Below are positions 2,102-27,600 of a stretch of DNA of 28,716 bases, piece after piece (position 1 is the stretch's first letter; the number at the start of each line of letters is the position of its first letter). Source of the stretch: a virus. The notes below the pieces were generated by a model. The model had not been told where the DNA came from, made no database searches, and was given only the letters and a program-made list of their open reading frames with translations. The stretch is taken from positions 1 to 28,716 of IMG/VR virus record IMGVR_UViG_3300025138_000244. The stretch is one strand, 5' to 3'. The translations under genes were made by a program, and so were the position numbers.

Positions 2102-2104
2102 GTA

Positions 2105-4519: not shown

Positions 4520-4524
4520 TTATT

Positions 4525-4548
4525 TCTCCTAGTTCCTTGGTATGTATC
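4525..4548 (-). promoter_or_regulatory. gp19 leader element shared with gp13
   Basis: The minus strand from the gp18 stop reads GATACATACC, then AAGGAAC, then TAGGAGA, ending at the gp19 ribosome site. The gp13 leader has nearly the same series (TATACATACC, TAAGAAC, ATAGGAGA) with one base of indel and few mismatches. The GATACATA core differs from the late box TATAAATA at two positions, so it may be a weak late promoter. No hairpin is formed here, unlike at gp13. Confidence 0.4.
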
Positions 4549-10314: not shown

Positions 10315-11121
10315 TTAACCTGTCATGAAGTCGATGGGAAGTTCGTATTGTAATCTGATCTCTTCTTCAAGACGTTCCACCTCTTGCTCTGCTTGTTGAT
10401 ATATCTCTCCACCCTTCAGACTGACTCCGCCAGGTAACTGAATACCATCATACTTTAGCATGTTCATACCCCACTGTTTCTTGAGTAAGGCAGTAAAATA
10501 TTTCTTAACCATCCGATCATTGAAAATCTTAGTATATACATTAGGATCTAACGCAGCATAGGCTTCAACACAAATAAATTGACCAGAAGTTGTTCTTTCA
10601 GACCAATCCATATCAATATGAAGTTTATTTGTTACTTTACTAAATCTAATTGATTTATCTGGACTGAAAAAGTCTTGTATTAGACTAGTATATCTTCTGA
10701 AAGTGTCGTAAGAAGCAAGAGGTTCAGATCCTCCACCGAATGCGTTTCCTGTATTAATTCCAAAAACATCATTCAATGCCCACTGATATCTGACATCAAA
10801 CATGTTCACTGTTCCTTGATCAAATCTCAGAACTCTAACCACACTAACAATATCTTTACCGCTAGGACCGCCTCCAGTTGGTCCATCTACTGGACCAATA
10901 TCGGTTGTTGTAACATATCCATTTGTTCGGTCGGTGTCTGTTATTGCATATTTGAAGTAACATCGCTCAACACCATCAAAGTGACGTTCGGTAAAAAAAT
11001 CAAGTGCTTCGTCTAATCTATCTTCTGCTTGCTGATAATCTACATTAATTTCTACGACAGGCGCACCTAATTTACGCATAGCATATTCTATGAGTTGATC
11101 TCTTGATGATATACTAGCCAT
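10315..11121 (-). CDS. gp13: Neck protein gp13
   Basis: This 268-residue protein (T4 gp13 is 309 aa) forms the first connector ring beneath the portal after packaging. The N-terminus reads ISSRDQLIEYAMRKLGAPVV, followed by EINVDYQQAEDRLDEALDFF, the hallmark of T4-like gp13. LDPNVYTKIFNDRMVKKYF and LKKQWGMNMLKYDGIQLPGG follow in the C-terminal half, with a Glu-rich helix near the end. AGGAG is seven bases before the ATG, but it lies inside the 3' arm of a 15-bp inverted repeat and would be hidden in a long transcript. gp14 follows after three bases. Confidence 0.97.
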   Translation of the reverse strand: MASISSRDQLIEYAMRKLGAPVVEINVDYQQAEDRLDEALDFFTERHFDGVERCYFKYAITDTDRTNGYVTTTDIGPVDGPTGGGPSGKDIVSVVRVLRFDQGTVNMFDVRYQWALNDVFGINTGNAFGGGSEPLASYDTFRRYTSLIQDFFSPDKSIRFSKVTNKLHIDMDWSERTTSGQFICVEAYAALDPNVYTKIFNDRMVKKYFTALLKKQWGMNMLKYDGIQLPGGVSLKGGEIYQQAEQEVERLEEEIRLQYELPIDFMTG

Positions 11122-11172: not shown

Positions 11173-11694
11173 TTACTTTGTTTGTGGAGATCCGTTTATT
11201 GTAACTTTAACACTCTCCACATCACCCATGTCCATTTGCTCAATATAGTGTCTTCTTGTTATCGGAGATTTTGATTCATCTGCTTTAGATGGTTCGTAAT
11301 TAGTAAATCCAGGCATATTAAGAGGACAACTTACTTTAGGGTAGTCTAGTTTACTGTATTCATCACCATCCGCTACTAGCCACGTTTGTTTCCTATCACC
11401 ACAACCACAACCGCCACAGTAATTTCTTTCTTTGTTGACTTTACTTGTTCTTAGATATTCGCATGGTGGTAGTTCACCCGTACCTATACAAGAAAGAACT
11501 CTTAGTTGTTTCGTTTTTTTATCTATCTTATTATTAGAAAGACCTCTTGATGCCATTGCCATAGCATAGGAACCAACCATACCAATTTTATCTTTTAGAC
11601 TTTTCTTTTTTAGATTTTCGGCAGGAGCAAACTCCACACTTTTTTTTTCTTTCTTTACCTTATCAAGCCTTTTTTTCATATCATCCTTTGACAT
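11173..11694 (-). CDS. Unknown 173-aa protein with a CxxCxC cysteine cluster
   Basis: I do not recognise this protein. The best start is ATG 11694, which has GGAG five bases upstream; a GTG at 11709 overlapping the preceding stop codon is less likely. Residues 5-35 are very Lys-rich. A small Ala/Met/Gly segment follows near 38-51. The core holds six cysteines: C69, C78, then C93-x2-C96-x-C98 in a NYCGGCGCGD block, and C123 in KVSCPLNMPGF. That pattern suggests a zinc or iron-sulphur site, or disulphides. The polar C-terminus ends in TINGSPQTK. The gene lies directly after the giant cysteine-rich genes, about 95 bases downstream of a late promoter, and before the gp13 hairpin. A structural or maturation role is only inference. 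Confidence 0.85.
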   Translation of the reverse strand: MSKDDMKKRLDKVKKEKKSVEFAPAENLKKKSLKDKIGMVGSYAMAMASRGLSNNKIDKKTKQLRVLSCIGTGELPPCEYLRTSKVNKERNYCGGCGCGDRKQTWLVADGDEYSKLDYPKVSCPLNMPGFTNYEPSKADESKSPITRRHYIEQMDMGDVESVKVTINGSPQTK

Positions 11695-11705: not shown

Positions 11706-14700
11706 TCACAGAATAAAAGTAATTTTCGAAACAAGAGGTCCAGTTAGGTTTTCTCTCAACGCACCACCCGTGTTCCAGTGTACACTAGTATTTATACCTG
11801 TCAAGTTAATTGTTATTCTTTCCTCTGTTGATGTTGTAGATTGATTAAAGATATAATTTAATATTTCCAAGACGCTACTGTTCGTCGGATTATCTACATC
11901 ATCAGTTGTGTCCTGCACATTACTAAAGTCAATATATTTAGAATCAATATTTAGGTTTACAGATTGATCAGAGAATGTACCAATGGTAGAGAAACTTGTA
12001 TTAGTCAATGCTGAAGTTTTACTATTCATTATTGTTTGGCATAACTTAGGTCCAAATGTATTATAATTTGTTGTGCTTAAAGTATTATTCCTAAACGAGA
12101 AGTATTCTAACGAATCATATGGATTTGGTATTATGGCTTCTTCTATACTAGTTGGTATGGAAGTAGTCATATTTCTATTTGTTTTATTTGGTAAAGTACA
12201 GTTTAGTAAATCAGTACTGACACTTATTGCAGAGTCTAGTGAGATTTCACTGATAGAGGGATTGTTCTCTATCTTAATACTACTCAATGGATTTCCTGTT
12301 AGATCTATAGTCTTTAAGAATGGCATTCCAATAAACTGTGGATTTGATAAATTACACCTAGCACCAAAGAAATATTCCAACTGAGGATATGTTCCTATTA
12401 CTGAAGTTAATCCTGAATTATATGCAATATTCAATTTACTTAAATAGATCTTATCGGTTCCTATGTTTAATGAAGTTAAATTATTATTAGGAACATCAAC
12501 ACTAGTAATGTATTGATTAGAACTAAGGTCTAGTGTTGATAAGTTATTATTACCTAAATTGATTTCTTCTATAGCAGCACACTTAGTAAAGGATAATGAA
12601 GTCAATTCACTAGATCTTGCATCGAGCATTCTAAGGTTAGGTAAATCTTGCGCCTCAAAATCTGTTTGCATAGTTGTCCAGTTATTACCCTGAACGGCAA
12701 ATTCTCTAAGATTTGTCATACCTTCAAGATTAACATATGTAATCTGTCGATCTAATGGAACTGGTCCATCAGTATAATAATAACTAGAATCATTTAACAT
12801 CAATCTATGAATAGTCTCTGCGGGTTGATTTGTTGCTAAAGTTGTTCCTCTAATATTCTTTAGAGTTTCTTCTACATACGGAATGCGTTGAGGTAATAGA
12901 CCATCGAGTTGGAAATATGCTGTCAGTGATTTTTGAATAAGAATATCATCTAAGAAAGATCCAGGAGCATTTCCAGTTCCACTGATGATAAAATCTCTAA
13001 AACCATTACCACCTGCTATGTTGTATCGGAAGGGGGCAATACTATTCACACCAGAGAACTTTTCTTCACCATCAACTGGGTTTGTATTTAATACAAATAA
13101 ATTGTCTGCAAAATTAGTTTCTTCATTCCAATACAAATAAGCATCTACATTGGGATCTCCACATGTAGAACCTGCCCATATATCATTTCCATCTTGTGAA
13201 TCTTGTCTTGCGAAAATTTGAACTACGTTCGCGTCACTTGCGTTAGGATCATTTTCTACTTGACATTTACAGAAAACGTTGTCTAGATCAGAAATTCCAT
13301 CTGTTGATAAAAACGCAACCTTACTACAGTCTCGTTCAATATTCTCACCGTTCACTGGATCTCGTCCGAGTAGACACGTTGTGTTTAGTCCATGAAAGAA
13401 TCCGCCGGCATCATTACATTGTTTTTCTGTTTGATCATCTATACATGTAAATGAATCAGTACAGCATGATCCTGTTTTTCTCGGCGAAGGTTGTCCGAAA
13501 TCAAAACAAGAGAAGCAAGATTCCATCCATTGTCCTCCGATTATAGCATCACAATCTGATTTTGTGTAGTTATCTAAACAAAGTTTTGGTTCCCCTGACT
13601 TGACTGTATAAGTGACTATACTGTTATCTGCTTGTGTATAGTTTCCGACGGCCTGGTCATCTACTCGACACTGACCCAAGGTTTGACTAACCACAGGAAC
13701 TTCGCCGCTGGTGCAGTCTGAACATTTTTGACCTGCACGCCATTTCGTCTCCAACACATTTCCAGTATTTAATGTTATTGTATCTAAATTAAAACCGACG
13801 TTTGTGCCTTGTTCTATAACTGCAAGATAATAATCCATCTTTTTCTGTAATTCTCTTGCACATGCATATTCGGTCATCATATCAAAGCATTTTGTTCTAT
13901 TCTCTGTGTGTTCTGTAGTACCAGCAAGAACATTGTCAATAAGATAACAACTACCTGCTAAGAATTTTTCACTTGAAGGCACACCTGATGGTAATGAATC
14001 TGCTAGAAGCAAACCAGAAGCAGGATAACTTCTAATGTCATCACAATAAACACCAGCCTGCCAAGATCCTGATAAACTTCTACACTGATCGTATGTTTTA
14101 GATTCGCATTTCCAGAGTTGACCATCGTTGTACTGACAACCACCCCACATTATAATTTTATTTGTATCTCCGTCAGTAGCACTAACCACACCACCCGCTA
14201 GTATACAATCTTCACTATTTGTATATGTCCTAACTACAACACTCTCACGACCATAAGTTGGTCCTTCTGTTGAATTCCACTTACCATCAATATAATATTT
14301 CTTTGGTGTGGGGATTGAGCAAACTATATTACCACCAGATTGTGAACCTTGTGTTGGTGGTCTGTTTTCGTTTCCTGCTGAGTCTTCTGTTGCTTGATTT
14401 AGAACACAATTCCAGTTATAACTTGGATTCGTTCTACCATCAATCTGACTTCGGCAATCTGTGCCTGGGCCCTTCCAAGATCCGCCATTTATTTGACAGT
14501 CTTGTTGAGTTAGTAGTCCTAGACATGATTGAGCAAAGCAACATGCCCCTAATTCATTTGTTATTCTTTCTTGATTTCTATCACATGGATTTGATTCGCA
14601 TTGTTGTGCTAATGGTGAATTTACTCCATCGTGGAATACACCACCCAAATCCGAACAGAATGTTTCGTTGCATGTATCGAAACATCCATCATCAACACAA

Positions 14701-15086
14701 CAGGCATATTTAACAGCAGTGAGAGAAGATAATTTATCTCTTTCTATTTGAAAACACGTTTTACCTCCAAAAAATTCTGCATCAAAATTTTCAGGAGTTA
14801 TACAATTATTTTCTTCTACTCCGTCACTACAACTAGTACATTTATTACATGCTCCTATTGAATCTCCATTTGATGGTCTATCTGGATTTATAAAATTAAT
14901 TGGACATGGATTATCTTCACAAAGACTACCCTCTCCTCTAAAAATTCCAAGATCTTTTTTACATTCAATAAATGATTGTTCAGAACAATCATATGATGAT
15001 GAACTCTCGTTATACACACAACATGCTCCAATTGCATTGGGGTTTGGTTGTATTGCTTTTGATCTTGTTCTGAATTGAATAGCCAT
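11706..15086 (-). CDS. Giant cysteine-rich protein with a C-terminal leucine-rich-repeat domain
   Basis: This 1126-residue protein lacks the collagen-like start of its neighbours. Residues 19-590 carry repeated GxCC modules, for example at 19 (IGACCVYN), 128 (ACCVDDGC), 180 (GACCFAQSC) and 539 (GSCCTDSFTC). Each is followed by spaced cysteines, a GG-x(3)-G turn and a closing C. Residues about 600-780 are a nearly Cys-free linker domain. Residues 782-955 form leucine-rich repeats of about 20 residues (INLGNNNLSTLDLSSNQYI, SVDVPNNNLTSLNI, TIDLTGNPLSSIKI). The end is Asn/Thr-rich. No signal peptide or membrane segment is visible. Its place before the neck genes is where T4 has baseplate-fibre and whisker genes. 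LRR domains usually bind other proteins, so a virion adhesin is the likely role, inferred only. Confidence 0.85.
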   Translation of the reverse strand: MAIQFRTRSKAIQPNPNAIGACCVYNESSSSYDCSEQSFIECKKDLGIFRGEGSLCEDNPCPINFINPDRPSNGDSIGACNKCTSCSDGVEENNCITPENFDAEFFGGKTCFQIERDKLSSLTAVKYACCVDDGCFDTCNETFCSDLGGVFHDGVNSPLAQQCESNPCDRNQERITNELGACCFAQSCLGLLTQQDCQINGGSWKGPGTDCRSQIDGRTNPSYNWNCVLNQATEDSAGNENRPPTQGSQSGGNIVCSIPTPKKYYIDGKWNSTEGPTYGRESVVVRTYTNSEDCILAGGVVSATDGDTNKIIMWGGCQYNDGQLWKCESKTYDQCRSLSGSWQAGVYCDDIRSYPASGLLLADSLPSGVPSSEKFLAGSCYLIDNVLAGTTEHTENRTKCFDMMTEYACARELQKKMDYYLAVIEQGTNVGFNLDTITLNTGNVLETKWRAGQKCSDCTSGEVPVVSQTLGQCRVDDQAVGNYTQADNSIVTYTVKSGEPKLCLDNYTKSDCDAIIGGQWMESCFSCFDFGQPSPRKTGSCCTDSFTCIDDQTEKQCNDAGGFFHGLNTTCLLGRDPVNGENIERDCSKVAFLSTDGISDLDNVFCKCQVENDPNASDANVVQIFARQDSQDGNDIWAGSTCGDPNVDAYLYWNEETNFADNLFVLNTNPVDGEEKFSGVNSIAPFRYNIAGGNGFRDFIISGTGNAPGSFLDDILIQKSLTAYFQLDGLLPQRIPYVEETLKNIRGTTLATNQPAETIHRLMLNDSSYYYTDGPVPLDRQITYVNLEGMTNLREFAVQGNNWTTMQTDFEAQDLPNLRMLDARSSELTSLSFTKCAAIEEINLGNNNLSTLDLSSNQYITSVDVPNNNLTSLNIGTDKIYLSKLNIAYNSGLTSVIGTYPQLEYFFGARCNLSNPQFIGMPFLKTIDLTGNPLSSIKIENNPSISEISLDSAISVSTDLLNCTLPNKTNRNMTTSIPTSIEEAIIPNPYDSLEYFSFRNNTLSTTNYNTFGPKLCQTIMNSKTSALTNTSFSTIGTFSDQSVNLNIDSKYIDFSNVQDTTDDVDNPTNSSVLEILNYIFNQSTTSTEERITINLTGINTSVHWNTGGALRENLTGPLVSKITFIL
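11789..11796 (-). promoter_or_regulatory. T4-type late promoter box before the 173-aa gene
   Basis: The minus strand reads TATAAATACTAG, matching the T4 late box with the common CT extension. It lies inside the end of the 1126-aa gene, about 95 bases before the next start. It would express the 173-aa gene and feed transcription toward the gp13 hairpin. Confidence 0.6.
12222..12743 (-). repeat. Leucine-rich repeats in the 1126-aa protein
   Basis: Residues 782-955 hold about eight imperfect LRR units with an Asn ladder (NNNLSTLDL, NNNLTSLNI, GNPLSSIKI). The spacing of about 20-22 residues is nearest the bacterial, BspA-like type. The repeats are divergent at DNA level. Confidence 0.8.
13317..15032 (-). 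repeat. GxCC cysteine-repeat region of the 1126-aa protein
   Basis: Residues 19-590 contain at least six modules of the form GxCC-x(3-8)-C-x(6-9)-C-x(3)-GG-x(3)-G-x(3-5)-C, some degenerate. The modules are interrupted by longer unrelated segments (for example 215-310 and 350-450). Around six cysteines per module would suit three disulphides or metal binding. Confidence 0.75.
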
Positions 15087-15092
15087 TATCTA

Positions 15093-18000
15093 TTACCTTT
15101 GCACATATCGAAATGTCGATGTGTTGTTTAAAACCTGTTGTTGTATATCCACACTCTTATTTATCTTTCTAAATTGATTAGAAGAATTTGTATTTTGAGA
15201 AGCCTCTCTGTTGAATGGATTGACTGAATCAAAAGGATTATCAATATCCCAGTCTGGATTTTCATTATCTTTTAATTTCGTTGGCCAAATTTCGTCCTTC
15301 CTTCGAGAACAAATACTACCTGCTGATCCTCTCATGAAATTTCCGTCTCTAATAGGACCAGTTTTTCCTGAACAAGAAGTACCCCACACAAACTCTTCAC
15401 CTGCACTACTGTCTGCTGGTGCATAATCTACTAGGTTTGATTTGTCGTACACAAACTGACACGAACTGAAAATTCTACTTTCACATTTATCATTGGCACA
15501 AGTAGGACATAGTTGTATTCCACAATCACAACCCTCACACTGAGATCTTTCACTTGCATTTTCGAGTAATTGTTTATAATTACCACTCACTATTGTAGGA
15601 CAACAGATTCCATCACATATTTCACCGTTACAATAACCACACAAGTTAGCCATTTCTGCTGCTGGAGTGCCGGCACATTCATCAGAGCATGGATTTTGAT
15701 TAGGCGGTGTATTACATCCCGAAGGACAACCACTTGCGTCCCTCATTGTAATACCAGCAATATCTGTTCTGTTTGCAAGTGTACATGGCTTAGGGCTGCA
15801 TCCGCCAGGACTCTTACAACAATCAGTCCAACTATATGGTATTACATTACCATCTGGTGTTATGATTGGATTGGGATCTGTAATTCTTCTCTTATCTCCA
15901 GTTGCGGGTGGATTATAGAGATGTAATGGATTTGGTGATGAATAGCCTAGTGGAAGTGGTCTATATGGACCAGAAGTTCCATTAACTGGCATACTAAATC
16001 CAGAAATGTTTCCATCGAATCCACAGTTAGTACAAGAGATATCACTTTCTCTTACCTCGCAACTACTACAATCGCTTAGATTTTCATCTTCATTTGAACA
16101 ATCTAAAAAGTAAGTTACACAGCAACAAGCACCATTAAACTTCTGGGTTTGACACTCTCTTGATGCACAATCTATACCTTCTTTGTACTGACCAAAACAT
16201 TCTTCTTCTGGTTTGACGTTATTGTTTGCATATGAAATTTGTGATTTACATCTATAACCAACACAACAAGAACCATGAATTTTATCACCCTTGTTGTCTA
16301 TATTTCCTCCACTCAGATTATTTCCACTATTAGTTCCACCAAAGTTAAACCCTACAGTATCATCTACACCGTCATTACCTTCATCACAATCTTCAGTAAA
16401 ACATTGATCACATTCGGGATTCGATGAATCACAACAAGGATCAGAACTTTGACAACAATCATCACCTGGCGAGCAACAGGCTGGTCCCGAAGGGTCATCG
16501 CAACAAGGACTTCTGGATGGGTGTCCTGCTGGACAATCACAGCAGCCTGGTGATTCACATGCACAGTCACACGATCCTGCTATGGCACAATTAACATCAC
16601 CACATAATGTATCAATTCCCATAAAGATTCCACCCAAGGCAGAGCATTCTTGTGGTGTTACCTGCTGCTCGATTGTATCTCCTCTACAGGAATTATTACA
16701 CAAACAACAAGCACCTCGAACTACCTTATCTTCACAACAGTCATCGCATGTTCCATCTTCTGTCCAGTTAGAATTAGGTCCACCTATTGCACTACATTGT
16801 GTTTCTCTCATTATGCCATAACAAGTTCCATTTATTTTATCACAACAAGATCCTAGTACTGGTCCTTCACATGCGTTATATGCACAACCATTTGGCCAGG
16901 TTCCGTTATCGGGTGCGGCACAAGGATCTGGGTTGTCTTCAGTTGCTGAGATGAACACACCATTGATTAGGTTACACTGCAATAGTGTTTGATCAGGAAT
17001 ACACTTGGGTGTTCCTAATGTGGGTTCTGTTTCCTCATATATCGTACATGAATTACAACTATCTAGTGTTGGTATCCAGTTAGAACCAATGATGGCGTTA
17101 CATTCTGCTTCTGTTCTATTGCTACATCCGATAGGACATGGAGAACAACAAGTTCCTATTACACCACGATTACAATCACCACAACTATTCGTTTCGGGGT
17201 GGGTTCCGTAACCGAAACCAAAGTTCAGTGATTCACACATACCGGAACAAGACTCAGTAAATTGGAAACAACCTTCTTCTGGATCTGGGCCAGAAGATAA
17301 AGGAACACAACAAGACCGTATTCCAGTGTTACATATTCCATCACAATAATTTGCATCAGGAGTTGAATTATCACAACACTGAAAACACTTATATTCATTG
17401 CAAATTATTGCATCGTAGGCATTTCCAGTTGGATCCGGCGGCGTTTCTAATTCACCATATTCACCACTGCGAGCCTCTTCACAAATAGTTGCTGCATTCT
17501 GGGGAGGACAGTAGATTGGTTCACCACTTTGATCAATTACCCCCGTACAACAAGCACCCAACACTCCCGCTCCACATACTTCTTCTGTTCTATTTGAACA
17601 AGAAACTCTTTCCTGAAAAACTCCATCAATATTATTACAATATGATTCACTAGTAAAGTCAATGCAACCCAAGTTACTGCAACAAGATCCTAATTCATCT
17701 CCAGCAAAAATATCTACATCCCAACCGTAACCAGTTTGTGTTGCATACCAAGTATTACCATTATCTATAGTAAGAATATTAACAATATCAACTCCATTAG
17801 TAAATACAGGAGTTTTATCGAACAATACGTTATTGGGAAATTTTATATTATTAGGACCACCTGAGATCACTAAAGTTACATTCTTTTGTGATGTGTAATC
17901 AATTCCATCATCCGAATCTAAAGATAAACCAGGGCTGATATAATCATAAGTTATGTTTGTAATATCGAATGGCGCACTTAGACTGATGTTATTGCTATTG

Positions 18001-19421
18001 GTTACATCTAACGAGAATCTTCCACTTAGTCCTTCTGAAGTATTTTCTCTGTTGTTTCTTTCTTCTGGTGGATAATAGCAAGAGCCGTTATAATTTTCGT
18101 TGGACTGACACTCATTTCCGCATGACAAAATAAAGCCATATCTAGTAGCGTTGCCAGCACTGCGACAACCTGGCATTATAACCAATCTGAGTTTATTATA
18201 CCAAGGATCATTTTGATTTTGGGTTTCTACCATCCTATCATCTATACGAATACAATAGGAGTGTACATTACCACCTTCTAATTCATCAACTGGACGACCT
18301 AGAGTTATAAATTCTTGCCCTCTAAAAACAGCACCGTTGAGGTTGGAGTCACTTGAACAATTTGTATCAAATATAATTGCTTCTTCGGTTGGACATGAAA
18401 GTGGTTCAGAACCAGCATTACCACTCCAAGTTTGTGGGTGTGGTCCTGCTTCGTAATTTTCTATTGGATTATCATATGGTGTATTGAAATCATCAATATC
18501 TCTTCTATAAGAGTCATTACCATATCCCTCATTTGTAAAGAGAACGTTTCCTGAAATTGGATCTGCAAAATTAACTTCAGATGCACCATACAGAGGTAAT
18601 TTTAATTTATTGGTTTGAGATGAATCATTTACCTTGGTTCTTAGCATCACGATTCGATCGGCTGCTGATAGGTGATAGAATGTTATACAAATTGTTCCTT
18701 CTTTAATCCCAGAGTTTCCTGCTTTATATTTTAATAGATTACTTACATCTAAAATATATTCTCTAAGAGTATCACCAGCAGCATCTACATTGAATGGGGA
18801 ATCACACCAATCAATATTAAACTCAGTACCGACACTCTCCAGTATATTTCTGAATTTAACTTCAACGCTATTACCTGCGCCTGAAACTATGTCCGCAGAA
18901 GGACCATATGTCATGCCAACAGTAGCATTACCTTTGTATCTTGGGCTTAAATATAATAGTTGTCCTGTAACACCTGAGTCGATATAACCAGTAGTAACAC
19001 CTGCACTACCAGAAATTCCAAGTTCAGTAGCACTGACAGTAAGACTTAAGTCATTAGTTGCAGTTATTCCACGGAATTGAAAAGTAACACCAGTTGTGGC
19101 TGAAGCCGAGACTCCCTTAAATGAAGACGGTGTGTTTGTGTAAGTATCACCATCCGCAGTGCCTGTTCCGTATGCATTATCACCAGTCAATCCATCTACG
19201 AATAAAGTAGTAGTAATATTGTCAGTATTTGTAAATGTAAGAGAAACCTTATCATTACCATCTATGTCTTGAACTGGATATTCATAATTCAAAAGATAAT
19301 TTGCATTTGGACCAGTCGAACCAGTAACACCTATATTTCCCGTAGGTCCAGTCAAACCTACAGCCTTAGTACCCTCTGGTCCTGTAGGTCCTGTCACTGC
19401 TTGGAATGTACTATAAGCCAT
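15093..19421 (-). CDS. Giant collagen-like, cysteine-rich structural protein (1442 aa)
   Basis: The protein opens with a ten-residue leader and a collagen-like stretch, residues 11-39, of nine G-x-y triplets with one interruption. A beta-rich region follows to about 575. It includes a large insertion at roughly 200-480 and ends in TNGVDIVNILTIDNGNTWYA (542-560), the same closing motif as in the 378- and 1881-aa proteins. Residues 578-1330 are packed with cysteines in GxCC modules (LGSCCSNLGC at 577, LGACC at 621, LGSCCDKINGTC at 856, RGACCLC at 902). Within this lies an extreme segment at 951-1012 with 17 Cys in 62 residues. The last 90 residues are polar, Asn-rich and almost Cys-free. The gene lies between the other two giants. 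Fibre or virion decoration is inferred; no enzyme motif is seen. Confidence 0.85.
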   Translation of the reverse strand: MAYSTFQAVTGPTGPEGTKAVGLTGPTGNIGVTGSTGPNANYLLNYEYPVQDIDGNDKVSLTFTNTDNITTTLFVDGLTGDNAYGTGTADGDTYTNTPSSFKGVSASATTGVTFQFRGITATNDLSLTVSATELGISGSAGVTTGYIDSGVTGQLLYLSPRYKGNATVGMTYGPSADIVSGAGNSVEVKFRNILESVGTEFNIDWCDSPFNVDAAGDTLREYILDVSNLLKYKAGNSGIKEGTICITFYHLSAADRIVMLRTKVNDSSQTNKLKLPLYGASEVNFADPISGNVLFTNEGYGNDSYRRDIDDFNTPYDNPIENYEAGPHPQTWSGNAGSEPLSCPTEEAIIFDTNCSSDSNLNGAVFRGQEFITLGRPVDELEGGNVHSYCIRIDDRMVETQNQNDPWYNKLRLVIMPGCRSAGNATRYGFILSCGNECQSNENYNGSCYYPPEERNNRENTSEGLSGRFSLDVTNSNNISLSAPFDITNITYDYISPGLSLDSDDGIDYTSQKNVTLVISGGPNNIKFPNNVLFDKTPVFTNGVDIVNILTIDNGNTWYATQTGYGWDVDIFAGDELGSCCSNLGCIDFTSESYCNNIDGVFQERVSCSNRTEEVCGAGVLGACCTGVIDQSGEPIYCPPQNAATICEEARSGEYGELETPPDPTGNAYDAIICNEYKCFQCCDNSTPDANYCDGICNTGIRSCCVPLSSGPDPEEGCFQFTESCSGMCESLNFGFGYGTHPETNSCGDCNRGVIGTCCSPCPIGCSNRTEAECNAIIGSNWIPTLDSCNSCTIYEETEPTLGTPKCIPDQTLLQCNLINGVFISATEDNPDPCAAPDNGTWPNGCAYNACEGPVLGSCCDKINGTCYGIMRETQCSAIGGPNSNWTEDGTCDDCCEDKVVRGACCLCNNSCRGDTIEQQVTPQECSALGGIFMGIDTLCGDVNCAIAGSCDCACESPGCCDCPAGHPSRSPCCDDPSGPACCSPGDDCCQSSDPCCDSSNPECDQCFTEDCDEGNDGVDDTVGFNFGGTNSGNNLSGGNIDNKGDKIHGSCCVGYRCKSQISYANNNVKPEEECFGQYKEGIDCASRECQTQKFNGACCCVTYFLDCSNEDENLSDCSSCEVRESDISCTNCGFDGNISGFSMPVNGTSGPYRPLPLGYSSPNPLHLYNPPATGDKRRITDPNPIITPDGNVIPYSWTDCCKSPGGCSPKPCTLANRTDIAGITMRDASGCPSGCNTPPNQNPCSDECAGTPAAEMANLCGYCNGEICDGICCPTIVSGNYKQLLENASERSQCEGCDCGIQLCPTCANDKCESRIFSSCQFVYDKSNLVDYAPADSSAGEEFVWGTSCSGKTGPIRDGNFMRGSAGSICSRRKDEIWPTKLKDNENPDWDIDNPFDSVNPFNREASQNTNSSNQFRKINKSVDIQQQVLNNTSTFRYVQR
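15158..15165 (-). promoter_or_regulatory. Weak late promoter candidate before the 1126-aa gene
   Basis: The minus strand reads GATAAATA, one base off the T4 late box, inside the end of the 1442-aa gene and 72 bases before the next ATG. Cyanophage late boxes may be looser at the first base, but chance is also plausible. Confidence 0.3.
15432..17690 (-). repeat. GxCC cysteine-repeat region of the 1442-aa protein
   Basis: Residues 578-1330 hold about ten GxCC modules, recognisable as (L/I/R)G(S/A/T)CC openings, mixed with Cys-rich spacers. The modules are diverged in length and loops, so this is an old protein-level repeat rather than a recent DNA duplication. Confidence 0.8.
16386..16571 (-). 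repeat. Extreme CC-doublet segment (17 Cys in 62 residues)
   Basis: Residues 951-1012 of the 1442-aa protein begin CDCAC and continue with CC pairs at 960-961, 973-974, 982-983, 989-990 and 996-997. Asp/Ser/Pro/Gly spacers of 5-12 residues separate them. The density resembles metallothioneins or tightly cross-linked peptides more than the surrounding GxCC modules. Confidence 0.8.
19305..19391 (-). repeat. Collagen-like G-x-y repeats, 1442-aa protein
   Basis: Residues 11-39 read as nine triplets (GPT GPE GTK, then GLT GPT GNI GVT GST GPN) with a two-residue interruption. Phage collagen-like stretches usually trimerise fibres. Confidence 0.85.
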
Positions 19422-19448
19422 AAGTTCCTCTGTTTATATATGTCATGG

Positions 19449-22400
19449 TCAAAATACTATCAGACATGCGTTGCTTCCAGATTCCATACCGCCAGGGAGG
19501 CCTGGTCCTCCGCCTTCTAAGCACGTTTGACTACTGGTAAAACTAAACGAACTCGTAGTTACAGGTTGTTCAAAGACACCAGCACAGTTTGATAGTTGAA
19601 TCAGGAAGTAATAATCACTACCTGCCTGAAGACCAAGATCGCGTAGGCGTATACTAGGAGTTCTTCCATTTGCATCAAGACCGAAGCCGCCAGGGAAGAA
19701 CTGATCAGTTTTATCTACACATCCATCCGTATTTCCTACACTACCTTCACATAAGAATATTTTAAGTTCAGGGACGCAATCTGGTGGGGAGGAAGGTACA
19801 ATATTTGTGAGTTCTAGTACAATTGATGTGTTTTCAGTTGGACAAATTGTATTATTATTACCACTGTCACAGACGTATGAATTTAATTGTGCAGTAGGAG
19901 GCGCACAGAAACAACAATCATCATCTTCAGGCAGGCATAATCCACATCGAACACGTTCTTCGCTTTCAGTAACTGAACCAGAAGATGCAGGAGGAACAGT
20001 GTTATCGATACCAAATTCATTAGCCTGACCACAAGTAGTAAGGTCAGTAACTAAGAAACTTTCATTACAGTCTCCTTGCGAAACATATCGACACTTTCGC
20101 TGATTGAACAGGGTTGTGTAACAACACTTGATTAATTCTTCTGGTGCGGCACAATTATTACAGATAGACACAGCAGTACCCCAAGATGCTTCACTATTAG
20201 GATCTTGATGTAATTGATTAATACAATACCACTGACCAACAGGCCATTTACACAATCTAGTTTCACCACTATCATCTGGAGAGTAGCAGCAGTAACCAAA
20301 GTCACCTTGAGGATTTGGTAGTTCACATACTTCAGGACAAAATCCATTTTCCGTCCGTGCGAGAGTCAATTGTGTAGAGCCAACTACATTAGCAGAGGAA
20401 GGAATACAATCAAATTCATTAACATCTTGTTCGCACTGTACTTCACCCAAGGCGGAGGGATCGTCTCGTACATCACCTTCGGCAAGAATTCCGGTACAAC
20501 AACAAGGAGTCCCTACGTCTAGACATGGGTTATTTATACAATCACCATCAGGTAAGAATATATCCTCCGATTCCATTGCAATAATACCCCCTCCTAGTTG
20601 GATGGTAACACCAAAATTACTCGCAACATCGACAACATCACATGGGTTGGGGTTTAAACATCTTCTACCGGTTGGAGTCGGACAACCACCTTCAGTACCT
20701 ATCGTCCACTTACGGTATATGACAGTACTTTCCTCTGGATCCCCGGGGGTGGGGAGGATGACTATGCTGCCTACTGAGGGACACTCCGCATCCGTTTCAA
20801 TACTGGTTCTAGTACTAGCATTATTAGTTAATATATAACAGCAACCTTCTTGTTCGCATATTATTGTTGAATCTTCTGGTCCTTCAACCCAACTTCCTTC
20901 ACATGCATCATCGCAAGTGTAACTAAGGACACCATTAGTACAACAATTACCGAATGGTTTGTCTTGACATGTACATGCGTTAAGAGTACATTCTCCATCT
21001 TGTGTCCATACATTCTCGTCTGCCGTTGGACTATCTACTTTACAATCTACCCATGATACAGATTCTTCGCATCTAGGTTCAGAACCTTCAGGATAACAAC
21101 ATCTTCCTAGTGGACATGGATTATTCTCAGTGCAACTGGAAGTATAAATTTCATTACCTTCACATACATTTCTTGTTTCGCATTCTCCAGTTGTACAGTC
21201 CCAACATCCAAAATCGAGGGGAGTTGGTGTTTCTACCAAATCTTCTGTAGTACCACAAACTGAACATCCATTTTCATCAGTATCTTTACAATAAATTCTG
21301 TTTTGGCAATTTGTGATAAGAAGACCAGACTGTTTGTTACGATTTTCGTTTACCGCATTTAAGCCAAGAATAGTGTTAATGCGAGTGAGATCATCTCCAT
21401 CCTCAGCAGAAATTGTAGTGTCTTCACAACTACTATCGTAACATAAACCTAAATTGTTTTCTGTATTTCCTATTAAGGATTGGTTTGTGTTTGTTCCTAA
21501 ATCTATTCCATATAACAACGATGTATATCGTGATGGACTAAAGTCAGTAAATTTATCAGTTTGTCCAGCAATACACGGTGTTACTGATCCACAGATTACG
21601 GGTAAGAATTTAAATTCCAATCCAACAGGAACATCTCTTATGCCTAATTCATCGTCAACTAATTTTGCGTGCTTCTGCTTTACAGAAAAATCAACATAGT
21701 TTAATTTTCTGAATGCAGGTGTTCCGTTTATATCAGAACAATTAGGATCTAATGAACTACTTTGACGAAGTGCTTGAATTCTACTTTTACACTCAACAGA
21801 AGAAGCATTAAAGTTTTGTTTATCGATATCACTATATGTTCCTATTTCTGGTGTTGGGGCAACAATGCTACTCCACTCTACAGCATTTCCGCAGAATGGA
21901 TTTTCATCGTCACATTCATTATAATAAACGCTCTGTAGATAAGAATTGTAAAGGCTTGCACAAGTTTCACTCCATGTTCCATCAGGCTTACAACAACTAA
22001 CATGAGTTACGTCAATATTGGTAACATACGCACAGAAGGAATTGAGACAAGATTCACACGCAAATACTGTGGTTATCTCATCTGTGGATTGTACCCAACT
22101 ATTGTCAATACTTCCGTCGAATAGTTTTATTCTACTATTACATTCTGCTGAATTATCTCCACAGGGGAATTTATCTGTATTATCAATTGGCCAATTTATA
22201 GTAGAACAAGTCGTATCTTCTTGTGTATTTAAGAATTGAACTACAGAGGGACCTAGTGATTTACCACAAAGAGCAGTTGAATTAGCAGATAGACAATCGT
22301 CAATTATCCTATCGTAATTTGAACTAACTTCACCACAAACACTAGGAGGGCAAGAATATCCTGTTCCATAAATTTCATCAGAGTTACAATAAGCCAATAG

Positions 22401-25094
22401 AGTAGGAGAACCAATTGCAGTTGGTGATAGAATATTTCGATCGGTTGTACATGTAAATGCTTCATTATGTCCCACACAGTAACCTTGTGTTAGATCCCCA
22501 CCCGCTGCTACATGACTCACTTCAATATTATAATTCTCATCAGTATAATTTCTTAAATCGTATGTGCTTAAAACTACTGGAGTTCCGTCTAGTCTTACAT
22601 CACCTGCATAATAGTACATCTGGTTTGGTAAGCCACTAGCACAACTATCTTCGTTACTAGCGAATGATGGAGAGGCTCCTGCTCGAACACAGTTGTGTGT
22701 TTGTACTTGTTCTGGAGGTGCTTCGCATAGATTTCCGCAAACTGGTTCAACCTCATCACCGTGATAAATTCCGCCGTTTTCTGTACAGTTATATTCGTTT
22801 GTTATACTACATGTAAAGTTAGTGCAACATATTCCAGTTTCAACTGGATCAGAACATGCATATGTTGGAAGATCCCATATATTATTTTTATAATTACTAA
22901 CGACAAGAGAGCAGCCTGCACTAAAGACACCAGCAAATGTTCTTCCATTTCCTTCATCATACGAACCAATTATGTCTATGCCAGCATCACCACCTGTTGG
23001 TATCATTTCTCGTTGAACAATGACTACTCGCTTATCAACATCTACTGCACCTTCATTTGACATATTGTAATCTACGGCATAACCATCTTCGTTTACTGTA
23101 TAGAATCTATTACTAGACTTTCGAGTTGATGTCCAGTATGGAACATTAGGAAAAGTATCACCAAGAAGAATCTTAAAATTATTTTTGTCTTGTAATGCAA
23201 TGAAAGACATTTCGTTTACACTGGGAACGTAATACTGAGTTTCTGTAGGAAGACCATTAGATAATTCATGTGCATATGGTATTGCTTCTGTTTCTGAGTC
23301 ATGTAGTACATTGCCATATGCTTCATAGTAGGTGTTATGCTTTCCATCTGAAAGTCTATCGCAACCAGTAGGACCGCTTATGTGATCAACAGTAACAGAT
23401 TGACCTAGTAATTTTAAGTCAGGTGTAGTAATTACTGTATTGTAAATATCTTTTATCCATAGTTTCCATTTACGGAAACCCAATGGAATATTATCTCCTT
23501 CTTGAGTACAGTTACAATTTAAAACAGTTCCACATACTTCACATCCACTTCCTTGAGTCCAAACACAGTTAGCACCTGTACACAATGACTGAGTTATGTT
23601 ATCGCTACAACTACCATCTGAACAGCAACATGCACCAAGAGGAATTGCTTGCCCAGAACAACAATCAACTGATTCACATTCGGTTAGTGGTCCCATGTGA
23701 ACACCACCTATATCACGACATTCTTGTGGTGTTTGTCTGCTTCGACATTCACTAGATAAACAACATGCTCCTCTTGTCAGTTCTTCGCATGGATCTATAC
23801 CGCTTTGATCAAATCCTTCACAAGTGTCATCACCATTATACAAACCGCCTAAATCTGCACATATTTGTGCAGAGGCCGTAATTTTACCACCTGCACCTAA
23901 ACAACAACATCCTAAATTCTCACACGGGGCTGGACAACTGAATGTGTCGCATGATTGGTTGGGGAAGAATCTTCCTGCAAGGAATTCACATTTTGTATCA
24001 GACATACGGAAACACGATTGATTAACACAACATGCACCAAAAATAGCGGCACAAGGTTCTGAATTGCATGTAACGTTTTCAGTAAATGTTCCTTCGCAGT
24101 CTGTTTTAAAAACATAGTCGGTGCAATTTGGTGGTGATTCACCATCACAACAAGAACCAATTCTTAAAATACCATCGAAGGTAGTTCCATAATTCTTGCC
24201 CGCAATAAAACAATGCCATTCATTTCCATTATCAAAAGATATGCAGTTAACTATATCAGTTCCGCTTGTGCTGAATGTTGGTCCAGCAGGCACAAACTTA
24301 AATTTACTATCAACGAAAGGATTTTCGCTACTTGCAAGTCCTGCATTTTTCAGAATAAAAGTGATATTCATCGACTCACCGAAAGTGACCCCATCACTAT
24401 TTAATGCTGTAAATCCATTTGTATTTGTTATTACATTATTGATTTTATAATTTGTACTACCAACAACATAATGATTATTTGCTTCTTTTAGACTTACTGA
24501 TACATTTGCATTTGCCGCTGGATCATGTCGTTTTACGATTTCTTGAAAGTTATCGAAAACCATTTGTACTGAATTTTCTTGTGGTTCTGTTCCTTCTACA
24601 AAGAACGTATCATCTGCACCACGAAGAAAAGTAGTACCAGCATAATATAGAAGTGATCCAGTAGGTCCGACCACCTGAGATGCCTGTCCAGAACCTGCTG
24701 GTGCGGTTATAGTTAAAGTTTCGAGACTTTCGCTGATAGTGATATCACCACTCGAACGGAAAGTTCTAAAGTAGGCAGTTGCTCCACTTACTCCAATGAA
24801 CAAGTTTGCCCCTGTTCCTACGTTTGTCATTATGTGTGATGGTGTATCCGTAGTAACACCCTTGTTACCTGTCATTGAGCCAAGGGTAAATGTGCTACCA
24901 TCTTTCGATTGTAATACAGTAAAAGCACAACCAGATAGACCAACAGAGGCAGATATGCCACTTCCCGTTGATCCTATATTTCCTGTTGGTCCTGTGTTTC
25001 CTGTTATACCTAATGGTCCCGAAGTTCCTTCGGGAGCAGCAGGTCCTTGTGGCCCTGATGGGCCCATCAGTGTAGAGATGGAAGAGTTACTCAT
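19449..25094 (-). CDS. Giant collagen-like, cysteine-rich structural protein (1881 aa)
   Basis: This is the largest gene in the window. A ten-residue leader is followed by about 12 collagen-like triplets (11-46), then a conserved domain ending in GTDIVNCISFDNGNEWHC (278-295). GxCC modules fill 313-525. Residues about 536-696 resemble the DUF1566/Lcl C-terminal fold, with YYVPSVNEMSFIAL and PYWTSTRKSSNRF matching its LPT..EL and YWSST signatures. One module follows at 754-792. Residues 800-1290 form a second, less Cys-dense region with its own repeats (AECNSRIKLF at 983, VECKSRIQAL at 1100). More GxCC modules lie at 1330-1728. The C-terminus (1730-1881) looks like an Ig or fibronectin-III-like beta domain (LGLQAGSDYYFLIQLSNCAG). 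No signal peptide or enzyme motif is visible. A long virion fibre is inferred. Confidence 0.85.
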   Translation of the reverse strand: MSNSSISTLMGPSGPQGPAAPEGTSGPLGITGNTGPTGNIGSTGSGISASVGLSGCAFTVLQSKDGSTFTLGSMTGNKGVTTDTPSHIMTNVGTGANLFIGVSGATAYFRTFRSSGDITISESLETLTITAPAGSGQASQVVGPTGSLLYYAGTTFLRGADDTFFVEGTEPQENSVQMVFDNFQEIVKRHDPAANANVSVSLKEANNHYVVGSTNYKINNVITNTNGFTALNSDGVTFGESMNITFILKNAGLASSENPFVDSKFKFVPAGPTFSTSGTDIVNCISFDNGNEWHCFIAGKNYGTTFDGILRIGSCCDGESPPNCTDYVFKTDCEGTFTENVTCNSEPCAAIFGACCVNQSCFRMSDTKCEFLAGRFFPNQSCDTFSCPAPCENLGCCCLGAGGKITASAQICADLGGLYNGDDTCEGFDQSGIDPCEELTRGACCLSSECRSRQTPQECRDIGGVHMGPLTECESVDCCSGQAIPLGACCCSDGSCSDNITQSLCTGANCVWTQGSGCEVCGTVLNCNCTQEGDNIPLGFRKWKLWIKDIYNTVITTPDLKLLGQSVTVDHISGPTGCDRLSDGKHNTYYEAYGNVLHDSETEAIPYAHELSNGLPTETQYYVPSVNEMSFIALQDKNNFKILLGDTFPNVPYWTSTRKSSNRFYTVNEDGYAVDYNMSNEGAVDVDKRVVIVQREMIPTGGDAGIDIIGSYDEGNGRTFAGVFSAGCSLVVSNYKNNIWDLPTYACSDPVETGICCTNFTCSITNEYNCTENGGIYHGDEVEPVCGNLCEAPPEQVQTHNCVRAGASPSFASNEDSCASGLPNQMYYYAGDVRLDGTPVVLSTYDLRNYTDENYNIEVSHVAAGGDLTQGYCVGHNEAFTCTTDRNILSPTAIGSPTLLAYCNSDEIYGTGYSCPPSVCGEVSSNYDRIIDDCLSANSTALCGKSLGPSVVQFLNTQEDTTCSTINWPIDNTDKFPCGDNSAECNSRIKLFDGSIDNSWVQSTDEITTVFACESCLNSFCAYVTNIDVTHVSCCKPDGTWSETCASLYNSYLQSVYYNECDDENPFCGNAVEWSSIVAPTPEIGTYSDIDKQNFNASSVECKSRIQALRQSSSLDPNCSDINGTPAFRKLNYVDFSVKQKHAKLVDDELGIRDVPVGLEFKFLPVICGSVTPCIAGQTDKFTDFSPSRYTSLLYGIDLGTNTNQSLIGNTENNLGLCYDSSCEDTTISAEDGDDLTRINTILGLNAVNENRNKQSGLLITNCQNRIYCKDTDENGCSVCGTTEDLVETPTPLDFGCWDCTTGECETRNVCEGNEIYTSSCTENNPCPLGRCCYPEGSEPRCEESVSWVDCKVDSPTADENVWTQDGECTLNACTCQDKPFGNCCTNGVLSYTCDDACEGSWVEGPEDSTIICEQEGCCYILTNNASTRTSIETDAECPSVGSIVILPTPGDPEESTVIYRKWTIGTEGGCPTPTGRRCLNPNPCDVVDVASNFGVTIQLGGGIIAMESEDIFLPDGDCINNPCLDVGTPCCCTGILAEGDVRDDPSALGEVQCEQDVNEFDCIPSSANVVGSTQLTLARTENGFCPEVCELPNPQGDFGYCCYSPDDSGETRLCKWPVGQWYCINQLHQDPNSEASWGTAVSICNNCAAPEELIKCCYTTLFNQRKCRYVSQGDCNESFLVTDLTTCGQANEFGIDNTVPPASSGSVTESEERVRCGLCLPEDDDCCFCAPPTAQLNSYVCDSGNNNTICPTENTSIVLELTNIVPSSPPDCVPELKIFLCEGSVGNTDGCVDKTDQFFPGGFGLDANGRTPSIRLRDLGLQAGSDYYFLIQLSNCAGVFEQPVTTSSFSFTSSQTCLEGGGPGLPGGMESGSNACLIVF
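19911..21107 (-). repeat. Distal GxCC cysteine-repeat region of the 1881-aa protein
   Basis: Residues 1330-1728 hold modules opening GRCC, GNCC, GCCY, TPCCC, GYCC and KCCY. The spacing is longer and the loops are more variable than in the proximal block. Confidence 0.7.
23007..23489 (-). other. DUF1566-like domain within the 1881-aa protein
   Basis: Residues about 536-696 begin GDNIPLGFRKWKLWIKD and include YYVPSVNEMSFIAL (621-634), PYWTSTRKSSNRF (652-664), an EDGYAVDYN turn and KRVVIVQRE near the end. The order matches the DUF1566/Lcl C-terminal, lectin-like fold often found on cell-surface proteins. The match is by eye and moderate. Confidence 0.5.
23529..24158 (-). repeat. Proximal GxCC cysteine-repeat region of the 1881-aa protein
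   Basis: Residues 313-522 hold five consecutive modules starting IGSCC, FGACC, GCCCL, RGACC and LGACC. These are the clearest and most regular copies in the window, each about 40-50 residues with about six cysteines. Confidence 0.85.
24957..25064 (-). repeat. Collagen-like G-x-y repeats, 1881-aa protein
   Basis: Residues 11-46 form about 12 triplets (GPS GPQ GPA, APE, GTS GPL GIT GNT GPT GNI GST GSG); one triplet has Ala in place of Gly. Confidence 0.85.
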
Positions 25095-25120: not shown

Positions 25121-26257
25121 CTAATATGTAGGAAAGAATATATCTACGCCGTTTTGAGATTTGATAGGCATTCCGTACCAAAGAATACCTTTACTTGATT
25201 GTCTTCCTGTAGAATAGAATTGATATATATCAACTGCTTCTGTCAGCACTGGTCTTTCATTGTAAGGAAAAATCCAATTGGGAGGCCACACATCAACACC
25301 CGAAGTAACACCATCATTTCTTGGTTCATTACTTCCTCCTTTAATCGCTAAAGTGAAGGCCGAAGCACGGGTTCCATTACCACCAAAAAACGTATTAAAA
25401 TTATCTGCTGTTGCTGTTATGTCATTAATTTTTACAAAAGGAGCGTTATTTCCTAATGGAGTCTCTGCATTAGTTTCAGAAATGTATAATGCATCAACAT
25501 CGAGATACCACATGTTACCCCAAGGTCCATTTGATCCATATGGATTTTCATTCATATATGTAATACCAAGTCTAATGCCAGGATTTATATTAAATTCAAT
25601 TACCCTATCGCTAGCAGAAATTGATCCACCACTAACTTCATTTAGTGTAAATCTATGAGCAACTTCATTATAACTTCTAGATGTTAATGCAACTGTTTTC
25701 TTTGTTGCATTGTAAACCATTCCTGTTGCACCAACAACAGAGTTTCGTGCCTCTGCACTGGTTCCAGCAGAAGCACCGAGGTATGCTATCCTACCTATAA
25801 CTGAAGTAGGAACATCCCCAATTTGCTTATTATCAATATACGTTATGAAAATTTCATTATCATCTTCAGTTACTGCAATACCACCAGTTCCAGTGAATGA
25901 TTTATATACAACTGTTCCGATATCAGAAATACAACTACCTACAACTGAAGTCAATACAGAGGCTTCAGTTCCTAGTGATTCTGTGAACAGTCTATAAACA
26001 GTAGAACCTGTAGGGCCTATTAAAGAAGAAACGCCCGATTGAGATATTGTTTCTCCATTCGACCATACAGTTTGAGCAATAAAGGAACCATCTTCGAGAA
26101 TTAAATCAATGCTACTTACTGTAGCACCACTAGGTCCAACTAAACCAATAGGACCAGTTAAACCAATAGGACCAGTTAAACCATCAGAACCAGTACCACC
26201 TGTAGGCCCAGTTGGTCCAACGTTACCTATGTTATAACCAATTACACTATTTGCCAT
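25121..26257 (-). CDS. Collagen-like fibre protein (378 aa), basic unit of the giant proteins
   Basis: The protein has a ten-residue leader, then 12 uninterrupted G-x-y triplets (11-46) such as [16 protein letters not shown] beta-rich body follows with [16 protein letters not shown] (125-140), and a closing domain with [16 protein letters not shown] (324-339) and [10 protein letters not shown] (342-351) ending in GILWYGM. That closing block belongs to the type common at the ends of marine phage fibre proteins (WP..VKWPGG...LT...D.F.F.T.DGG..WYG). The 1881- and 1442-aa proteins share the same leader length, collagen start and closing motif, but continue into cysteine repeats, which this protein lacks. 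It follows the collar-domain gene by 11 bases and precedes the 1881-aa gene by 26. A trimeric fibre is likely. Confidence 0.85.
26120..26227 (-). repeat. Collagen-like G-x-y repeats, 378-aa protein
   Basis: Residues 11-46 form 12 uninterrupted triplets, with GLTGPI occurring twice in tandem. The matching DNA (around 26140-26175) has a near-perfect 18-base tandem duplication, which could slip and vary in length. Confidence 0.85.
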
Positions 26258-26268: not shown

Positions 26269-27600
26269 TTATCCCGTAGATACTCTAAGGTCTCCACTAC
26301 TATTCCATAATGCTCCAGCAACAGAGGGATCTGAAGTTGGTAGATTAGTAAGAGAAAGAGTTTTCAAACTTAGGTCGTTTAAGAACGCAGTATAACTTGC
26401 ATCACCGACACGGATGATCCAGTTCACTGTAACATAAGGAGGCATATTACTTATTGCAGATATACCTTCATCTGTATTATTGGAATATCCTTGCTGGACT
26501 CCAGATTCTGTTATTCTATCTATTGAGTTGTAATCAATTTTATCATAACCGCCTGTTTCATTCAAACCGCTCACCGATGTAGTATCGGCAGTAGCACCGA
26601 ATATAAATTTATTTCTTAGATCTGGTGTTAATGAAGATTCAAATACAACTGAAGATGGCTGTCTCTGTGCGTCTCCTAATAGATTTTTGTTTACATCTAG
26701 TAAAATAATATTACTGCTTAATGTGTAACGAGGTAAAGTTAAACTAGTTGTTTGCTTAGTGGCTGTTGTTGCAGAGTCACCACGAATTCCATCTATACCT
26801 TCTTCGTTGTAGATTTCATATTCAACAACTAATGTAGTTGTATTCGGACCATCATTTCTAGTTGTGGATATTATTCTAGCATAAATCTCATTAGCAAGAG
26901 TATATACCGCACTGGTATTCACTTGTCCTGCTAATACTATAGAGTCTCTATATCCATATCTTTTCTTGATGACTGGTTCGTATAAAGGATATGTAATATT
27001 ATTAATTGCTCTTCCGTCACATAAGGCCCAACCAGATGGGATACTACTTATATCACCAACGAAAGCATGAATAGAACCTACTGGATTTACTCCACTCATG
27101 TATAGAGCAGTATCTCCTCCAAGGTAGTTACCAACATAGTTTTTAACTATTGCATGGTCTTGTGTTGCACCATTTACTACGAATGATGGTGTTCTAATCA
27201 TGACAGTCTTGAGGACAGTTCCAGCGTCTTGCGGTTGAACACTATCAACGGAACCAGCAGTCACAGCACTAAGATAGAAAACTTCGGCCGCAGTAGATCC
27301 ATGAATAGTACCGGCTGTCGAAAATGTGGTAGTGTTAATTTCACCATGAACAACATACGAGAAAATATTGAGATCTATGGCTGTTTTTACAACTCCACAT
27401 ACCTCAGCATTTGCTGGGTTGTCTGCTTTGGCTAGAGTATAACCATTAGATGTAGTATCAAATCTAATTACACTACCTGACGTAAATCCATGTCCAATCT
27501 GAACAATTGGACCTAGTTCTAGATTTGCTCCAACTTGTACAATTTCGCCAGGTATCGGAGTCCCTGATATATTTGAACTTGATGTATTACAATCGGTCAT
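26269..27600 (-). CDS. Phage tail-collar-domain fibre protein (443 aa)
   Basis: Residues about 1-170 form a beta-rich head domain with an Ala/Gly/Thr bias (GFTSGSVIRFDTTSNGYTLA). Residues 174-216 match the phage tail collar domain: VGSIHAFVGDISSIPSGWAL, then CDGRAINNITYPLYEPVI. The collar module continues with LTPDLRNKFIFGA (324-336) and MPPYVTVNWIIRVGD (386-400). The last residues, LTNLPTSDPSVAGALWNSSG, are a motif very common at the C-terminus of marine phage fibres. T4 gp12, the short tail fibre, carries a related collar domain and lies in a similar place. Its ATG shares one base with the preceding stop (TAATG), and an AGGAG site lies upstream. It is likely a short tail fibre or receptor-contact protein. 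Confidence 0.9.
   Translation of the reverse strand: MTDCNTSSSNISGTPIPGEIVQVGANLELGPIVQIGHGFTSGSVIRFDTTSNGYTLAKADNPANAEVCGVVKTAIDLNIFSYVVHGEINTTTFSTAGTIHGSTAAEVFYLSAVTAGSVDSVQPQDAGTVLKTVMIRTPSFVVNGATQDHAIVKNYVGNYLGGDTALYMSGVNPVGSIHAFVGDISSIPSGWALCDGRAINNITYPLYEPVIKKRYGYRDSIVLAGQVNTSAVYTLANEIYARIISTTRNDGPNTTTLVVEYEIYNEEGIDGIRGDSATTATKQTTSLTLPRYTLSSNIILLDVNKNLLGDAQRQPSSVVFESSLTPDLRNKFIFGATADTTSVSGLNETGGYDKIDYNSIDRITESGVQQGYSNNTDEGISAISNMPPYVTVNWIIRVGDASYTAFLNDLSLKTLSLTNLPTSDPSVAGALWNSSGDLRVSTG

Follow-up and report, generated by a model that had tools for sequence, protein, structure and literature searches.

Three consecutive giant proteins at the fibritin position of an uncultured T4-like phage carry a repeated six-cysteine module likely related to iRhom

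The window analysed here is the whole of a 28,716-base IMG/VR virus fragment, IMGVR_UViG_3300025138_000244. An earlier note on this DNA had described three consecutive giant genes summing to 4449 residues, and these are indeed present as minus-strand open reading frames, P0001 to P0003, with 299 cysteines in total (6.7%). Only 6 bases separate P0001 from P0002 and 27 bases P0002 from P0003, giving the three genes the appearance of a single transcription unit. The giants and their nearest neighbours, the latter named from gene order, sequences and a TerL comparison, are arranged as follows.

10315..11121, minus strand: gp13-like neck protein, the anchor of the search for relatives
11173..11694, minus strand: x178, a six-cysteine protein of 173-178 residues between the giants and gp13, its ATG at 11694 after a GGAG Shine-Dalgarno site
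11706..15086, minus strand: giant gene 1, P0001, 1126 residues, 53 cysteines
15093..19421, minus strand: giant gene 2, P0002, 1442 residues, 111 cysteines
19449..25094, minus strand: giant gene 3, P0003, 1881 residues, 135 cysteines
25121..26257, minus strand: collagen-like fibre protein of 378 residues, directly upstream of the giants and without modules
26269..27600, minus strand: gp12/short-tail-fibre-like protein with a Phage Tail Collar domain
27600-28715, minus strand: fibre protein

Read along the minus strand, the fibre, Tail Collar and collagen-like fibre genes are followed by the three giants, x178 and the gp13-like gene, beyond which lie gp14-, gp15-, gp16-, terminase-, sheath-, tube-, portal-, protease-, scaffold- and capsid-like genes. 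Comparison with the T4 record shows that the giants fill the slot of wac, the fibritin gene, after the collar-like gp12 and directly before gp13; the order gp12, slot, gp13, gp14, gp15, gp16, gp17 is shared, and the slot here encodes fibre-type N-termini. T4 wac, however, is one gene of ~487 residues with no cysteine, whereas three genes occupy the slot here, and T4 has no counterpart of x178, the extra six-cysteine gene preceding gp13. Neither Pfam nor PHROGs yields a fibritin match to P0001-P0003 at E 1, so the giants are, as judged from sequence, a positional counterpart of fibritin and not a member of its family. In the cultured marine cyanophage S-PM2 (L355), the slot upstream of gp13 (p088-p091) holds a 3338-residue hypothetical protein, p088, together with three annotated virion structural proteins, so that giants at this position are not confined to the module lineage. 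Unlike the cysteine-rich giants of the window, p088 has 7 cysteines within the 2210 residues read, and the modules described below are found at the corresponding slot in none of S-PM2, Melnitz and T4.

The giants share a module of ~38 residues with six cysteines (C1-C6), GACC-x(4-5)-C-x(7-8)-C-x(3)-GG-x-F-x(6-9)-C-x(3-4)-C. A profile of 41 positions, seeded from the window and related loci and iterated against decoys (the composition-shuffled whole set of window proteins and locus ORFs), has the consensus GACCtnngsCiDnvTesdCeslgGtFhgggtttCdtvnC; in the window proteins and locus ORFs it gave 172 matches above 9 bits, the top decoy reaching 6.4 bits. At 9 bits or more, the iterated profile scores 19 copies in the giants (7 in P0001, 4 in P0002 and 8 in P0003), and the bare GxCC motif occurs 20 times (3, 8 and 9, respectively). 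P0001 begins with an N-terminal QFR motif, continues with its seven modules and ends in leucine-rich repeats (LRR); P0002 combines a collagen-like N-terminus, a tail-fibre-like domain, the four scored modules and more cysteine-rich segments; P0003 has a collagen-like N-terminus, a five-module array and an Lcl_C-like motif, followed by modules and cysteine-rich segments. The features within the three proteins are listed below.

14448..15029, minus strand: P0001, first array of four modules, residues 20-213 (module profile)
14037..14141, minus strand: P0001, module without C2 and C6, residues 316-350 (module profile)
13374..13592, minus strand: P0001, two more modules, residues 499-571 (module profile)
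12483..12728, minus strand: P0001, leucine-rich repeats (Pfam LRR_4 and LRR_8, above cut-off)
17739..17885, minus strand: P0002, tail-fibre-like segment, residues 513-561 (weak PHROG tail fiber match, E 0.005)
17574..17690, minus strand: P0002, module 1, residues 578-616, immediately past the tail-fibre-like domain (module profile)
16587..17156, minus strand: P0002, modules 2-4, residues 756-945 (module profile)
24963..25064, minus strand: P0003, collagen-like repeats, below the Pfam cut-off
23532..24158, minus strand: P0003, tandem array of five modules, residues 313-521 (module profile)
23004..23234, minus strand: P0003, Lcl_C/DUF1566-like motif YYVPSVNEMSF...YWTST, residues 621-697 (motif-level resemblance)
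22731..22835, minus strand: P0003, module 6, residues 754-788 (module profile)
20841..21107, minus strand: P0003, modules 7-8, divergent (10-11 bits with the first model, ~27 with a later one)

The module pattern given in the earlier note is close to the one obtained here, and the module lies far above chance, yet the statement that such modules dominate the giants was too strong: the 19 copies span ~708 of the 4449 residues (16%) and, at six each, account for ~40% of the cysteines. The remainder consists of collagen-like stalks, tail-fibre-like domains, the LRR domain, the Lcl_C-like motif and other cysteine-rich segments. The module matches no family in Pfam, NCBIfam or PHROGs. When two modules of the P0003 array were modelled with AlphaFold2 (mean pLDDT 87.9), the predicted fold comprised a hairpin, a short helix and a strand. 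The collagen-like repeats at the N-terminus are weaker in P0002 than in P0003, and blastp finds the tail-fibre-like segment of P0002 also in P0003 and in the loci L055, L065 and L054. Among module-bearing relatives, the partner domains include Lcl_C (L118, just under the Pfam cut-off), an FGE-sulfatase fold (L062) and LRR (L055, above the cut-off); all three are frequent in surface binding. Two of these relatives merit description in their own right: L062 encodes at 683-4978 a surface protein with an FGE-sulfatase domain, related to C-type lectins, and one GxCC module, and L055 encodes at 2033-5143 a P0001-like protein in which GxCC modules are accompanied by LRRs and by a segment that looks, by eye, like a cupredoxin. 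No reverse transcriptase is encoded in eight long relatives, so there is no sign of a diversity-generating retroelement there.

The search for relatives anchored on the gp13-like protein returned 80 viral loci, many of which have cysteine-rich GxCC ORFs ahead of gp13. Full-length P0001 orthologs occur in ~8 loci at 40-46% identity, and relatives of P0002 share 43-51% identity over its first 560 residues. A DNA pattern with fixed spacing was used to find further module loci, both viral and genomic; among the viral ones, 77 of 80 further loci have ORFs with modules. No convincing module copy is found among 50,697 isolate records; a match in Vibrio phage 501E54-1 (E 1.0) was dismissed, since the module profile did not confirm it. 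Neither tblastn of the whole giants against isolate phages nor pattern scans made with the whole proteins on viral contigs returned a match, probably because the giants evolve fast. Giants of like layout recur widely among uncultured T4-like phages. TerL is closest to sequences of Kyanoviridae and of Methylophilales phages (~58-60% identity); a cyanophage-type host was considered and rejected, no psbA being present in the eight long relatives. One subclade (L027, L029, L032-L047 and L052) keeps x178 and has, in place of the giants, a protein of 616-628 residues with 11-12 cysteines and a single GTCC, which shows that modules are not essential for the slot. Two of its loci (L043 at 1053-3230 and L047 at 596-2776) also encode a 725-residue protein ending in another cysteine motif, GNCC...CLNVEC...NSWDAQCVELAQIFCC; motifs of this kind are present in planctomycete and myxobacterial proteins.

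Three loci place modules among tail genes. A single ORF of 1381 residues in L096 (6468-10613, minus strand) joins a T4 gp5 OB domain (E 2.2e-29), the gp5 trimerisation domain, collagen-like repeats and five modules, which argues that modules can be virion parts and is the strongest single link of the module to the virion. In L089, a module giant of 1424 residues and 170 cysteines lies inside a baseplate cluster with wedge-subunit genes, and in L098 a module giant lies near the tape-measure protein. Taken together, these contexts indicate that phages of several types employ the module within their tail gene clusters. The earlier claim that the giants are virion proteins gains support from the L096 gp5 fusion, from the wac slot and from the collagen-like and tail-fibre-like N-termini, which are weak in the window proteins, and we infer from gene position and domain content that the giants form part of this phage's virion.

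The small neighbour x178 has six invariant cysteines, in the pattern LSC..ELPPCE..CGGCGCGD..YSKLDYPKLxCPLxMPGFTNY. It is encoded in at least 583 viral stretches, tblastn finds none in isolate phages, and it has no convincing match in Pfam, PHROGs or PDB; matches to PCSK9 (E 0.5 or worse) were dismissed. Its predicted fold (pLDDT 72) has no PDB match. When loci that extend 4 kb or more upstream are counted, all of them found via gp13 or x178, x178 and modules occur together in 51, modules without x178 in none, x178 without scored modules in 13 (12 of them in one subclade) and neither in 7. Several module records found with the DNA pattern, possibly fragments, do not contain x178. Thus x178 is a marker of this lineage; it might act on behalf of the giants as a thiol or metal protein, which is a guess.

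Modules are also encoded in bacteria, in line with the earlier note, which had mentioned modules of this type from big surface proteins of some environmental species. Among the matches listed, ORFs of 71 of 80 genome loci contain modules, the carriers are mostly Phycisphaerae, other Planctomycetota and Zixibacteria, and arrays reach up to 21 copies. Of 73 bacterial proteins, 57 have a hydrophobic segment resembling a signal sequence ahead of their modules. These secreted proteins have the module and its six-cysteine pattern in common with the phage giants; they differ from them in being exported by signal peptides and in having no tie to phage structural clusters, whereas the giants carry no evident export signal.

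Cysteine is by far the most conserved residue of the giants: in P0001 orthologs 96% of cysteines are conserved (48 of 53 invariant), followed by tryptophan at 74%, and in P0002 orthologs 91%, followed by glycine at 63%. We analysed the joint loss of cysteines in 1068 module copies less than 70% alike, using Fisher tests, which ignore shared ancestry. C2 and C6 are both absent in 18 of the 1068 modules (p=1e-18); in the first module set, such joint losses come, by manual count, from about five distinct module classes. C2 alone is absent in 11 and C6 alone in 32, some of these solo losses showing a C6 displaced further away; the C2/C6 covariation is therefore not strict, and this counts against the disulphide reading. 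C3 and C5 are jointly absent in 2 modules (p=7e-4) and C3 and C6 in 3 (p=0.04), and no other cysteine pair is associated among the 1068 modules. An additional cysteine at the x position of GxCC (GCCC) occurs in 9 of 17 copies without C3 against 19 of the 1051 others (p=3e-11). That cysteines are lost and compensated two at a time is consistent with disulphides C2-C6 and C3-C5, with C1-C4 remaining. Judged from these patterns, a C2-C6 pairing is well supported, a C3-C5 pairing is weakly suggested and a C1-C4 pairing would follow by elimination.

Searches against known structures point to a relative in animals, the inactive rhomboids iRhom1 and iRhom2. With a profile of 39 phage modules, the sole matches up to E 10 among all PDB sequences are iRhom1 and iRhom2 (best E 2.7e-7, with two stretches matched in iRhom1); the reversed profile gives nothing below E 1. 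An independent profile of 45 bacterial modules ranks the same four iRhom sequences first (E 4.9e-4), with one unrelated match at E 1.9. The similarity extends beyond cysteine spacing: the iRhom stretches outscore 2000 of 2000 shuffles with cysteines held fixed in three of four cases and 1991 of 2000 in the fourth, and the phage profile gives the second stretch 31.6 and 36.1 bits, a value as high being reached by 0 of 2000 such shuffles. A tandem-pair profile is less specific than the single-module one (E 0.087), and no rhomboid family matches P0001-P0003. A Foldseek search of 350,542 chains with the two-module model gives four matches, two of which are iRhom1 and iRhom2, weakly (E 5-6), and VIA-align superposes the module model on iRhom2 residues 466-522 with a Z of 2.0 (36 residues, rmsd 2.5). 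The structural evidence is weak on its own; added to the profile evidence, it makes a relation between module and iRhom likely, though not proven. The iRhom homology domain (IRHD), ~240 residues long and tethered to the membrane, holds on to ADAM17. It was called unprecedented when solved and is held by eight disulphides (PMC11248996), it was said to resemble no known domain (PMC6451368), and all 16 cysteines of this extracellular/luminal domain are paired in the model (PMC10148629). The IRHD is a single domain on a membrane protein, whereas the phage modules are repeats inside fibre proteins.

In our view, with a probability of roughly two in three, the giants are virion fibres of an uncultured T4-like phage and their modules are likely three-disulphide knots. 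The earlier note had left open whether the cysteines bind metal instead. Ligands of a metal site are expected to be kept or lost together and often include histidine. Modules that fold in the cytoplasm as metal units (zinc or iron-sulphur) and stay loaded with metal, x178 helping to load or protect them, would be compatible with the six cysteines and CC pairs of each module, with the cytoplasmic synthesis of giants lacking evident export signals and with the presence of x178, which has an invariant CxxCGCGD motif, in 51/51 module-bearing loci tested in this lineage. We consider this distinctly unlikely, however, because the module profile has no conserved histidine ligand, cysteines are lost or moved in twos (C2 with C6; C3 to GCCC) as fits disulphides, the bacterial relatives of the module are exported, the related iRhom domains are fully disulphide-bonded (PMC10148629), and x178 persists in the subclade without scored modules. 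Searches of Pfam, NCBIfam and PDB match no metal-binding family. The evidence from cysteine covariation and from the iRhom relation thus appears to favour disulphides over metal and, indirectly, to speak against cysteines that are scattered and unpaired, the outcome that the earlier note had named as contrary to its view. Neither DsbA nor glutaredoxin is encoded in the eight long relatives, whose records are possibly fragments; the lack of a phage disulphide catalyst, together with the reducing cytoplasm, counts to a limited degree against disulphide fibres, and it is also consistent with, though no proof of, spontaneous oxidation after release.

Two further explanations concern what the giants do. 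The module may have been taken from, or may mimic, the GACC proteins of a planctomycete-type host, like docking to like, with disulphides of purely structural use. Among the matches listed, the module abounds in proteins secreted by Phycisphaerae/Planctomycetota and Zixibacteria, and it adjoins adhesion-type domains in the phage proteins, but the nearest TerL sequences are those of Kyanoviridae and Methylophilales phages, and we rate the proposal as unlikely; such docking would be compatible with disulphide fibres in any case. That the giants are instead late proteins freed at lysis, for example a matrix or a decoy, would suit their few close homologs in known virion families; with their collagen-like and tail-fibre-like N-termini, their neck/fibre operon position and the gp5-module fusion in L096 all against it, we hold this to be highly improbable.

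The best reading, in our judgement, is that the giants form virion fibres, attached to the neck or the tail, that are adhesive or resemble whiskers and that are assembled from a disulphide module related to iRhom and so far undescribed. Two giants would be tethered by collagen-like, trimeric, fibre-type N-termini and the third by a short motif conserved at its N-terminus, and all would display strings of modules together with adhesion-type domains (LRR, Lcl_C-like), from which we infer an adhesive role. Each module would form a small beta-hairpin/helix knot with three disulphides (C2-C6, C3-C5 and C1-C4); compact, stiff and resistant to proteases, it would act at the surface of the virion either as a spacer or as a unit for binding. 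Since they have no evident export signal, the giants are presumably synthesised reduced in the cytoplasm; closure of the modules would then probably follow lysis, once virions are freed into oxidising water. Hardening of the fibres by disulphides after lysis is a plausible hypothesis, and with a widespread lineage spending ~13 kb on these genes, lysis-triggered oxidation is directly testable. A broader proposal, which we put forward tentatively and with considerable doubt, is that one small disulphide module, ancestral or horizontally spread, is common to phage fibres, planctomycete secreted proteins and the extracellular domain of animal iRhom, the phage fibres being assembled reduced and locked only after lysis, and the lineage-specific x178 being devoted to handling their thiols or to their assembly.

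To our knowledge, tailed phages have not been described as using repeat fibres rich in disulphides on their surfaces, since the cytoplasm in which their proteins are produced is reducing; our literature search found no description of such cysteine-module phage proteins. These probable phage surface fibres with arrays of iRhom-related cysteine modules represent a real, widespread and apparently undescribed design. For the IRHD, the module supplies sequence-level candidates for relatives in bacteria and viruses. It stands a real chance of meriting a new family; with none in Pfam, NCBIfam or PHROGs at present, one new profile could annotate many environmental phage and planctomycete proteins.

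The giants of the window are not the longest seen: in record G003 (that of L308), a 3001-residue open frame with several modules, noted at ~33,500-34,150, exceeds any of them.
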